Below, piece after piece: positions 1,539-8,283 of a stretch of DNA of 64,000 nucleotides (the stretch's first letter is position 1; every line of letters begins with the position of its first letter). The DNA comes from Branchiostoma lanceolatum (lineage: Eukaryota > Chordata > Leptocardii > Amphioxiformes > Branchiostomatidae). The stretch covers positions 9,801,501 through 9,865,500 of the forward strand of contig NC_089726.1 of NCBI RefSeq assembly GCF_035083965.1, in the 5' to 3' direction. Both the position numbers and the translations under genes were made by a program. The notes below the pieces were generated by a model. It was given only the letters and a program-made list of their open reading frames with translations, was not told where the DNA came from and searched no databases.

Positions 1539-3795
1539 ATGGCGGGTAAGTTGAGATGTTTTTAGTGAAATTCCCCATATTTTTGGCTTTTTCGTGACGA
1601 AGTTATTGGCACGGATTTGTAGGTGAAGGGCCTCTTAAAGACGTAACCTTGGTAGTAGTATTGACGATGGTGCGATCGCGTGCTACAGATATGTTGAATA
1701 TTGCTTAATTTGCAAGAAAAATATAGCACAGCGAGCTTGGTTTGTTGCAACAAATTATGTTTATTTTTGGCGACGCCTCAGGGGCGAGCCAAATTTTTAC
1801 TATATTGTGTGCAGATTGCAAGAATTCTAGGAATTGTACAGGAATGTGAAAGTCCATGGGACGATAACTCAAGAATGCCTGGATGTATTGTCTTCATATT
1901 TTGTAGGTGGGTAGGTCTGTGGGAGACCTTGTAATGATTGGATTTTGGGCCCCCTAGCGACTTTCTATGGTACTGCAGGGGAACTTTCACTTTTCAAATC
2001 TCGTCTTCTGAACATGCTATAGTCATGATTTTTAAGTAGTAGATAGCTCTTTGTTAGGAAAATATGTCCTGTAGATTTGGACCCCCTAGCGGCTTTTTTT
2101 GGAACTGCAGGAGCTGATTTTGACTCAAACTTTGAAAGAGAATAACGCAAGAAGGGGATGACGGATCATCATAATTTTTGGTGTGTAGATAGCTTAAGTG
2201 ATGATTTACATAATCATATGCCAATTATGCAAATCAATATCTGATTTGCATAATTAATGAGGACAGTTTATAAATCAGCTGCATTCTATTATAGGACTCT
2301 CAAACACATGACATATGTAACTGAGAAAGAGATAAATATCGATAGATATCAATTATGCAAATTGATACTTAATTTGCATAATTAATGACAAATACTATAA
2401 ATCCATAGTGGTAAATGATGGGGATTTCATTTTTGAACCATTTGGAAATTAAGTAAATGTGGCCACTATTAGACACAAATCTTGCATAGAGGGCCTCATT
2501 TACATAATTTATGAGGAAATGGTACGATATCTTTTTTTGTGAAAACAAGATTTTCATACATTGGACAACTTGTGTTATCTTGGTAGAGAAGGTGATCGAC
2601 TGATATGATTTATGCAATTTATTATGCGAGGTCCTTATTTGCATGTGGGCTAAAAACGAAAACGTTAACAGAGACCACCGTCGCCATGGCAACATCTTTT
2701 TATGTTGCCAATCTTGTTTGTATTGCTGTCCAATTAATTCCAGTCCGAAGGAAATGCACACATTTTTCGCCAAACCAGTTACCGGGTAATCATCAGAACG
2801 ACTCGTATATTAAAACATAGCCGGATGACGAAAAAATTTTGAAATGTTTAGGCTGGAAGGTATAATTATATAATTTTAAACTAGAAGCATACCCTGAGCT
2901 TTTATCTTACCCTGATATATAAGTCTTCCATAATTTGTCCGGCCGCCACTGCGGCTTCGCTTTGATTCGGTTGTTGTATGTTGGCCGCGCCACATTTTTT
3001 TGTGTTAAAATCATCCTAGCAATGACGTCACCGTTTGCGATCCTTTTCCAATTTGTCCGGGCAATAACCTCAAATAAAGTACGCACCCTGACTTAAGCAA
3101 TGACTTGTGGTGCCTTTTGAATTTTGAAATGTTTAAAAAGTGTGTACTTTATTCGAGACAATACGGTATTGCACTGTCTCTATGATTGGCCCATTGCTGA
3201 TTCAAATCTATAAGTGTTCCTGTGATTCCTGTCAATAAGACTTCGTTGTTACTATTGACAGGATGTTATATAAGTGCACATGATATCGGTTTTTGTTTTT
3301 CTTTCAGATCACAGGGCCAACTTAGCCAGAGTTTGTAGGGTGTGTGGTGTGCGATTCGCAATCAAGGGCCGAAAGCCAAAATCTGTTAAGACATTCAGAG
3401 ACACCATTGCACACTTGTATGGAGATTACAATGTAGATCAGGACATGGAGGATGTTCACCCTCCCTTTGTATGTGAGAAATGTCGCAAGACCCTGATGTG
3501 TGTACAACAAAAGCTTACATCTGGCAAACAGGTCACTACCACATTGAAAGACAAACTGCCAAACTTTAACCCCCATGTTGATGGTAGCTGTGGAGTATGT
3601 GTGTACAAACAAGAAGGAAGACCTGCAAGAAAGCCCCACTTCCCTCCTCCACGTGCCCCTCCTGCTGACGTGAACACACAGCCAGCTTTACCTACCTCCA
3701 CTGCCGATGTGAATGCGCAGCCTACTAGCGCTAGGGATGTGTACTGGGAAAATCATTTAGGTACAGGTCCTAAATACCACAACATTATGTACTAA
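1539..3795 (+). CDS. Stand-alone RAG1 N-terminal zinc-region-like protein (unspliced short form)
   Basis: Exon 1 (1539-1545, ATG GCG G then GTAAGT) joins in phase 1 to 3308-3795 after an acceptor ending TTTCTTTCAG, giving 164 aa. Residues 10-20 read [11 protein letters not shown], then [11 protein letters not shown], then [10 protein letters not shown] and a basic GRPARK tail. This order (CRxCG, IHPxxFCxxC, PHxxxCxVC, basic) is that of the zinc-binding N-terminal region of vertebrate RAG1, which lies before its RING/dimerization domain and outside the catalytic core. RAG1-type N-terminal modules are known in amphioxus and other invertebrates, both free and in N-RAG-TP-like transposons. No RAG1 core or RAG2-like sequence is seen nearby. 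The C-terminal part is proline-rich with a repeated ADVNxQP motif. A poly(A) signal follows at 3910. Function is unknown. Confidence 0.75.
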
Positions 3796-6700: not shown

Positions 6701-8283
6701 ATATGTAATACAGATATATGTGGAAATTTCTCTAAGGGTTTGTTTTTTAGAGTTGGGAACATCTTTCTTTTCTTCCATTTCACTAGGAAAGGTCCAAGTA
6801 AAGCCTGTCCAGATGGAGGACATCTTGGCTACTCCTGCCAAGGTCATGACTTTTGATCTAACAAAAGTGTCTGCAGAAGACCTTTCCTGTGTCCAGGTGA
6901 AATCTTCTCCTTTTCCATCACCTTTGATTTTTAAAGCATTCCTTACACCAAGTTGTACCCTTTTTAAAAAGTAATAAAAAGCTTAAAGGCATGTTTCTGC
7001 CCTCTATAGTATTTGCTTCTACTTGTAATTATAATTTCATGTGACCTTTCTTTATGTTTATGTCTAACCTGCAAGCAATAGCAACTAGACCTGTCCTGAT
7101 TAGGTATACTAAATCAGAATACCAGGTCTTGCCTAAAATGATCATGACTGTACCTCTACACACAGGGTGCATTCAGCTTCAGCTGTTACGGCTGGTCACA
7201 GATGCAGGGTTTTGCCACCTGGTTTGATGTCTTCTTTCCATCACCAAAACCAGTGTTGCTGTCGACTTCACCATACTCTGAGTAGGTCTGAAGTGGTTAC
7301 ACATGGTGTCTTTGTCAATAGAAATAATTTTATTATCTGCACCTGAATTTGTGGCACATACAGAATAGTTTTAAAACTTCACAAATTTGACAATGGAACG
7401 AAGAAAGGCTGAACAAGCTATGGCTGAACAGGCTATGGAGGCATAAATAAAGGCTTTGACTTGACTTGACTTGACTATATGAAACTGTTCTTTCATATTT
7501 GATCATTGCAGAGAAAGTCTAAAGAGTTCTTTGTGAAAACTTGACATCATTTCCTTACCAACTTTTTTATGCCACCATTGATCATCGATGCTACAGGCAT
7601 GAAAAGTGACCTTTTTGATTTGAAATGGTTCTCCAAAGAAACTGATCAATACTGATCTGTATTACTGATATTGAGATAATACATTATGTAGAATGTGCTG
7701 CCATCACTTTGCATGCTTGTTGGTTTAATTGTTTCCTTTCCCCACGCATGTACAGAGACACCCACTGGATGCAGTCTGTCATGTCCTTGGATGAGTCAGT
7801 CCAGGTTACTCAGGATACACGGGTCAACGGAGTCATCAAAATTACACCAAATTCTAGGAACAACAGGTCTTTAGTCTTATCATGTCTCACATTTAATGTT
7901 CCAAGGACATATGCATATGTAGACAGCCTAAAGATATGACAACTTTCATACATTATATTCCTGCAGAAAGCATTTCTGTAGAAGTAGTCAGATTTATACT
8001 GTATGGAGCTGGGAGTTTTGGTCATGGCCTATTGACAAAAGAATACCAGTCCTTGTCATTTAAGTGTATTAAAGTATGCTTGGAAGCATGATTCTTATAG
8101 ATGCACTTAGTTGATGTTAGGGCATTACTGTTTGCTGCTCTGTTGTTGATATGTTGCTATACAATCTCATTTTCATCAAAACCTATTTTCTTCCTACCCA
8201 GATTCTTGGATATGACCTTGAAATACAGCATAGATGACAGTGAAGAGGTGGAGAGACTTTACCCCATGGATGACTGTAGATAA
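1539..8283 (+). CDS. PRMT6: RAG1-N-terminal-like zinc module joined in frame to PRMT6-type arginine methyltransferase
   Basis: Exons: 1539-1545, 3308-3760, 4122-4479, 4687-4752, 4870-4979, 5569-5717, 5837-5905, 6128-6198, 6540-6622, 6787-6896, 7166-7281, 7756-7866, 8202-8283; 594 aa with all phases consistent. Residues 1-150 match the RAG1 N-terminal zinc region (see the short form at this locus). Residues 154-270 are a low-complexity basic linker with RKRRK and SKRRK, possible nuclear signals. Residues 272-594 are a full type I protein arginine methyltransferase: SAM-binding [12 protein letters not shown] (about 310-321), acidic post-I loop YAIEAS, double-E loop [12 protein letters not shown] (378-389) and THW loop (533-535). 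The N-terminal [15 protein letters not shown] and the whole core resemble PRMT6, a nuclear enzyme making asymmetric dimethylarginine (for example on histone H3R2). Human PRMT6 is about 375 aa and intronless as I recall. An alternative start at ATG 4274 would give a conventional 390-aa PRMT6, so the fusion is inferred from splice phase. The methyltransferase assignment itself is firm. Confidence 0.75.
1831..2640. repeat. Composite dispersed repeat in the first intron, with octamer palindromes
   Basis: The block 1850-2130 carries a sequence (GTAGGTGGGTAGGTCT ... GGCCCCCTAGCG ... GGTACTGCAGG) that recurs in diverged form at 1-70 (minus), around 28050-28150 and around 29340. It is followed by AT-rich palindromes: ATTATGCAAATCA and its complement TGATTTGCATAAT (2226-2257), and a second similar pair near 2350-2385. 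These contain the ATGCAAAT octamer core. The pattern suggests a non-autonomous transposon remnant. Confidence 0.55.
3910..3915 (+). promoter_or_regulatory. Poly(A) signal AATAAA for the short RAG1-like transcript
   Basis: AATAAA lies 115 bp after the stop at 3795. Use of this site would make the short protein; splicing at the GT at 3761 would bypass both the stop and this signal. Confidence 0.5.
5180..5285. repeat. Dispersed repeat in a PRMT6 intron, second copy near 44520-44600
   Basis: The stretch GTGACAGGGAACAACAGATAATAAACC...CATAGTGA...GTGAGTGAG is found again in diverged form in an IMPDH intron at about 44520-44600 (GTGACGGGGAACAACGG and AATAAACCACATAGTGAG). This is a short interspersed element of unknown class. 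Confidence 0.5.
7442..7475 (+). repeat. Retroelement-like 3' tail with (TTGAC)n
   Basis: AATAAAGGCTTTGACTTGACTTGACTTGAC combines a poly(A)-like hexamer with a pentanucleotide tail inside a PRMT6 intron. Such tails are typical of 3' ends of amphioxus non-LTR elements; I infer a heavily 5'-truncated copy. Confidence 0.4.

Follow-up and report, generated by a model that had tools for sequence, protein, structure and literature searches.

Analysis of a 64,000-nucleotide stretch of the Branchiostoma lanceolatum genome (NCBI RefSeq assembly GCF_035083965.1, contig NC_089726.1, positions 9,801,501 to 9,865,500 of the forward strand; hereafter the window) revealed a PRMT6 methyltransferase gene with a predicted in-frame exon for a zinc module of the RAG1 N-terminal (Chapa) type. 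We consider it fairly probable that module and enzyme are produced together as a single nuclear protein, where the module would steer PRMT6 to partners or chromatin sites. A continuous fused frame was confirmed: a 13-exon model with GT-AG introns, located at 1539-8283 on the plus strand and ending with the stop codon TAA at 8281-8283, forms a single open frame of 594 amino acids. Exon 1 (1539-1545, ATGGCGG) comprises 7 nucleotides (nt) and supplies the predicted start codon; its donor scored second highest of the 12 in the model. Exon 2 (3308-3760) encodes the zinc module, placed at about residues 3-111 by model, profile and alignment, and a linker, while exon 3 (4122-4479) encodes an N-terminal extension of PRMT6. 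The catalytic and oligomerisation parts of the enzyme are distributed over exons 4-8 (4687-4752, 4870-4979, 5569-5717, 5837-5905, 6128-6198) and 9-13 (6540-6622, 6787-6896, 7166-7281, 7756-7866, 8202-8283). An earlier sequence-only reading had proposed both this fusion and a free form of the module, and expected the locus to bear on the question of how RAG1 acquired its N-terminal region; as a whole, that interpretation is partly supported.

The exon beginning at 3308 was found to encode the zinc pattern of the RAG1 N-terminal region, as the sequence-only reading had stated. The Pfam family RAG1_imp_bd (PF12560), with a curated cut-off of 23.3 bits, matched residues 25-111 of the 594-amino-acid protein (E 2.5e-8, 34.3 bits), and the profile comparison that had been proposed for the N-terminal residues gave a positive result with the exon 2 product alone (E 9.5e-10, 38.9 bits); both matches thus exceed the cut-off. 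In a search of solved protein chains with the module, the best matches were three RAG1 sequences (E 1.9e-5, 1.3e-3 and 1.3e-3), presumably from mouse, and the fourth and last was a ribosomal protein (E 0.79), taken as noise. Alignment to the joined RAG1 pieces scored 113 vs. 27.3 ± 4.8 (maximum 50) for 500 shuffles. The predicted zinc ligands C12, C15, H53, C58, C61, H92, C97 and C100 aligned with RAG1; their groups, read as stretches of 13 and 10 residues, comprise the first pair at 3334-3345 (CRVC), a second group at 3457-3483 (HPPFVCEKC) and a third, 10-residue group at 3571-3600, all on the plus strand. This pattern, which was written after the module had been seen, occurred once in the six-frame translation of the window and in none of 100 Markov-simulated windows. 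These comparisons support the assignment of the exon 2 module to the RAG1 N-terminal type. A single-sequence structure model of the module reached a mean predicted local distance difference test score (pLDDT) of 43.8, too low for use.

The PRMT6 catalytic domain expected downstream was also present. Solved PRMT6 chains were the best matches to residues 247-592 (E 1.8e-106, 360 bits), the match starting at residue 24 of the solved chain; the best chain not named PRMT6 scored 252 bits, with PRMT1 and PRMT2 well behind PRMT6 among the best 60 of the 71 matches. The methyltransferase motifs (22 residues) are VDVGAGTG (311-318), which we take to be motif I, SEWMGY (378-383) and YESML (387-391), taken as the double-E loop, and THW (533-535), presumably the THW loop. 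Judged by sequence similarity, the enzyme part is PRMT6, closest to PRMT6 among the PRMTs. PRMT6 acts in the nucleus as a type I methyltransferase and modifies R2 of histone H3. The extension encoded by exon 3 contains two basic clusters, QRKRRK and SKRRK, which in our view resemble nuclear localisation signals and could act in nuclear import.

The evidence that joins the two parts comes from the predicted 3760/4122 junction. The GT at 3761 leaves phase 1, and the only open forward frame of exon 3 is the one set by exon 2, the remaining two carrying several stops each. The acceptor of exon 3 is 80% pyrimidine across 20 nt, and its earliest in-frame ATG lies at base 4274 (residue 205). All of this agrees with the earlier description of a phase-1 donor, a good acceptor and an exon with no in-frame ATG near its start, with the caveat that a matching open frame is by itself roughly a 1-in-3 event. 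Among 900 candidates, the sole match at E ≤ 1e-3 to residues 1-240 was a 491-amino-acid PRMT6 model of B. lanceolatum (P0001), which joins exon 2 to exon 3 exactly at the predicted junction, where a stretch of 14 residues was read. Identity to P0001 was 33/37 in the tail of exon 2 (residues 118-154, counted by eye), 114/119 in exon 3 and 428/441 over exons 3-13; a scripted tally of 37/50 for exon 2 includes the out-of-frame start discussed below. According to excerpts of PMC9673378, the B. lanceolatum annotation used RNA-seq, B. floridae protein alignments and Augustus prediction, and frame-breaking PacBio indels were reported in the assembly. P0001 presumably originates from this annotation. 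Given this mixed evidence and the indels of the assembly, the join in P0001 is support for the splicing rather than proof of it.

A second line of evidence was provided by the observed-to-expected (o/e) CpG ratio. Exon 2 had a ratio of 0.35, intron 2 one of 0.27, exon 3 one of 0.06 and the remainder (4480-8283) one of 0.18, compared with 1.01 at 1251-1750 and 0.65 at 8284-9600. All 500-nt segments of 3251-8500 had values of at most 0.45; a CpG-poor block begins at exon 2 and lasts until PRMT6 ends, with no promoter-like CpG-rich gap before exon 3. As CpG depletion in invertebrates marks methylated gene bodies, the block fits one methylated gene body, and the profile gives moderate support, independently of P0001, to one transcription unit. 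Since P0001 crosses the junction, residues are conserved on both sides of it and the CpG-poor block is shared, we conclude that exon 2 and the PRMT6 exons likely form one transcription unit. A sole start of PRMT6 at ATG 4274, the case that the sequence-only reading had set against its own proposal, is unlikely because conservation holds upstream of 4274 and across the junction; P0001 starts upstream of this ATG as well, and a CpG-rich gap was not seen.

Several observations weigh against a fused product. The donor at 3760 (TAG/GTACAG) is weak, ranking 11th of the 12 in the model by a scoring matrix, and 15% of the window's 4099 GTs on the plus strand reach at least its score. If intron 2 (3761-4121) is retained, the frame of exon 2 stays open until an in-frame stop at 3793-3795, and an AATAAA signal follows at 3910 inside the intron, both of which had been named in the earlier reading. 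Because the donor is weak, an isoform of 164 amino acids consisting of the free module is possible. The stop, the signal and the donor would also suit two genes, the first coding for a free RAG1-N-terminal-like protein and closing at 3795, the second being PRMT6 under a separate promoter within intron 2 or exon 3. We find this arrangement improbable, as P0001 crosses the junction, residue conservation continues through it, CpG ratios are low in both intron 2 and exon 3, and the intron is just 361 nt long. The CpG profile is not one-sided either: segments of intron 1 (1751-2500) drop to 0.37 and those at 9001-9500 to 0.25, and one quarter of all 500-nt segments of the window lie at or below 0.39. 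Directly upstream of exon 2, a CpG-rich stretch (2501-3250, o/e 1.1-1.2) is possibly a second promoter or an unmethylated 5′ region, and could provide an alternative start upstream of exon 2. For the fused gene starting at 1539, the likely promoter is the gap at 1436-1538 (CpG o/e 0.72), shared with an ARPC4-like gene on the minus strand; the divergent start codons of the two genes are 104 bp apart. The exon of ARPC4 (Arp2/3 complex subunit 4) itself was detected at 600-800 on the minus strand (E 7.7e-18), with its ATG at 1435, in head-to-head orientation.

The start of P0001 also counts against the fusion. PF12560 is not among the Pfam domains of P0001, so that the zinc module is missing, and its residues 1-14 correspond to 3597-3638 read in another frame, after which the protein continues with RAPPADV in the PRMT6 frame. 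Omission of 13 bases of the window (3639-3651, plus strand) reproduces this start, and the module frame then soon hits a stop; the absence of this stretch would explain the beginning of P0001 and shift the module into a frame different from that of PRMT6. The difference was deduced from the P0001 protein, not from the DNA of its locus. Given the missing module and the other exon 2 frame at the start, the fusion is apparently lost, allelic or mis-assembled in P0001, and it may be unstable across amphioxus species.

These observations can be accommodated by a single transcript from which PRMT6 is translated from a start within exon 2 or 3, the module being either a relic in decay or made separately upstream. 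P0001 agrees with this, as it begins at an ATG of exon 2 outside the module frame and omits the module. Codon usage agrees as well, although it is weak evidence and, with a neutral module frame, gives little help: the score of the module frame was -0.033, compared with 0.003 for the next frame, and fell slightly short of the 95% point of 225 intron stretches (-0.015). The linker (0.203) and exon 3 (0.093) lie above this point, yet each has a competing frame with almost the same score, a reverse one for the linker (0.188) and a different one for exon 3 (0.088). A codon-usage ranking of open reading frames (ORFs) was not used as evidence, its own training set having included exons 2 and 3. We nevertheless regard an internal start as rather unlikely. 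The module in the window contains no stop and no frameshift and retains six Cys and two His residues of the pattern, and any internal start would lie downstream of ATG 1539. In addition, because CCA ends both the 13-nt stretch and the sequence immediately before it, a deletion on the P0001 side is weakly favoured over an insertion in the window, which argues against a relic, though from a single pair of sequences. Far less probable still is that an assembly error or rare allele accounts for the fused frame in the window. P0001 does differ by 13 nt precisely where the frame is decided, and the PacBio indels mentioned above indicate that such errors occur. However, the correction described in the excerpts of PMC9673378 concerned single indels, and those errors belong to that assembly, not to the one from which the window was taken.

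In the fused protein that we favour, the promoter region that ARPC4 likely shares would drive transcription, splicing at 3760/4122 would join the module exon to the PRMT6 exons, and translation would begin at ATG 1539. The module is predicted to bind zinc via its Cys and His groups, and the protein would enter the nucleus, possibly helped by the basic clusters of exon 3. By analogy with the RAG1 N-terminal region, the module may then serve as a docking arm that targets PRMT6 to partners or chromatin sites. Its candidate origin is a RAG1-like or Chapaev-type transposon, a source that appears likely because the module is otherwise described in such elements. More tentatively, and with considerable doubt, we propose that a RAG1/Chapaev module was domesticated as a PRMT6 targeting arm marking histones or RAG-like transposon complexes, and was lost in one amphioxus lineage by the 13-base change. 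If so, one portable module would be used by the V(D)J recombinase as well as by a silencing enzyme of the host. We know of no agreed origin or primary function of the RAG1 N-terminal region. A host enzyme with the module and without a recombinase would allow the binding partners of the module to be studied in isolation, and the presence of the module on PRMT6 would show its mobility between proteins. Should the fusion vary between amphioxus species, a natural gain-or-loss comparison would be available. As for how RAG1 acquired its N-terminal region, the module type is already known, as Chapa, from lancelet Chapaev transposons, and the locus alone therefore does not explain this gain.

Other features were recorded in the window. 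Just downstream of PRMT6 lies an inverted repeat (8581-8961) resembling a miniature inverted-repeat transposable element, with 97-nt arms that are 93% complementary and separated by 187 nt. Intron 1 contains a 39-nt repeat (2222-2514) in two near copies (87%) plus a third, diverged one (62%), spaced by 128 and 126 nt, and a 92-nt stretch (1864-1955) that matches positions 1-92 of the window in reverse at 82%, likely a dispersed repeat. A scan of 10 of the 55 long ORFs of the window identified exons of IMP dehydrogenase on the minus strand (43013-45971), with a CBS domain exon between catalytic parts, and a somatomedin B domain in the ORF at 30684-30986. Neither an Rfam scan nor a tRNA scan gave a hit in the window.

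With the module alone as query, none of the 31 word-sharing candidates reached E ≤ 1e-3. A longer query admitting RAG1-sized proteins gave 26 candidates, none at E ≤ 10, and did not recover known RAG1 proteins either; for this reason, ProtoRAG, Chapaev and a host gene could not be told apart here as the closest source. No protein combining the module with PRMT6 was found in the protein searches with residues 1-240 or with the longer module query, and neither tblastn (other matches at E ≥ 0.5) nor the pattern detected further copies of the module in the window. Likewise, titles and abstract openings of the open literature on PRMT6, RAG1 N-terminal and Chapa topics contained no description of a RAG1-module-PRMT6 protein. 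Separate N-terminal-like proteins were reportedly noted in lancelet by Kapitonov and Jurka in 2005; their set may already include exon 2 of the present locus. The module type is thus not new (Chapa, N-RAG), while its placement on PRMT6 is, as far as these searches show, an undescribed architecture.

The predicted protein was compared with known systems. The order of the CxxC, HPxxxCxxC and HxxxxCxxC groups is the same in the RAG1 N-terminal region (PF12560, C1-C3) and in the exon 2 module. In RAG1 the module is followed by a RING-type dimerisation domain and the recombinase core, whereas here it is followed by PRMT6; no RING (ZDD) or recombinase family was found in the 594-amino-acid protein, in which the other 17 of the 18 Pfam families are of methyltransferase type or methyltransferase-related. 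Excerpts of PMC8516306 describe the N-terminal third of RAG1 as dispensable for catalysis and required for efficient recombination, and the degradation of RAG1 as directed by the CRL4-VPRBP/DCAF1 ligase. Amphioxus ProtoRAG RAG1L, of which the N-terminal region bears C1-C3 zinc motifs (PMC7204232), is alike by description; it differs in having a RING-type ZDD and a recombinase core, neither of which occurs in the module-PRMT6 protein. Two full copies and one truncated copy of ProtoRAG are given for B. lanceolatum in the excerpts of PMC9673378. RAG1-type N-terminal modules outside RAG1 are likewise known by description: the Chapa domain, which occurs in Chapaev transposons of lancelet and sea anemone and in truncated form in TransibSU elements (PMC4411706), and the sea-slug (Aplysia) element N-RAG-TP, which consists of the N-RAG region alone (PMC8355894). 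At the present locus, no inverted repeats were found flanking exon 2 (none of five pairs in 1100-4200 flanks 3308-3795), and no transposase was found in the six ORFs scanned near the module, in intron 1, intron 2 and just upstream. Three Pfam matches below the cut-off in these six ORFs were rejected as chance.

Ordinary PRMT6 shares the catalytic and oligomerisation regions and the motifs; the present protein differs from it by N-terminal additions, namely the zinc module and the 119 residues encoded by exon 3. SETMAR is an example of a host-transposase fusion gene. The module-PRMT6 gene resembles such fusions in that a transposon-type domain is spliced, here by a predicted splice, to a host chromatin enzyme. 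It differs from them in that its transposon origin is a candidate one and that the added part is a zinc-type, N-terminal module rather than a DNA-cutting core.

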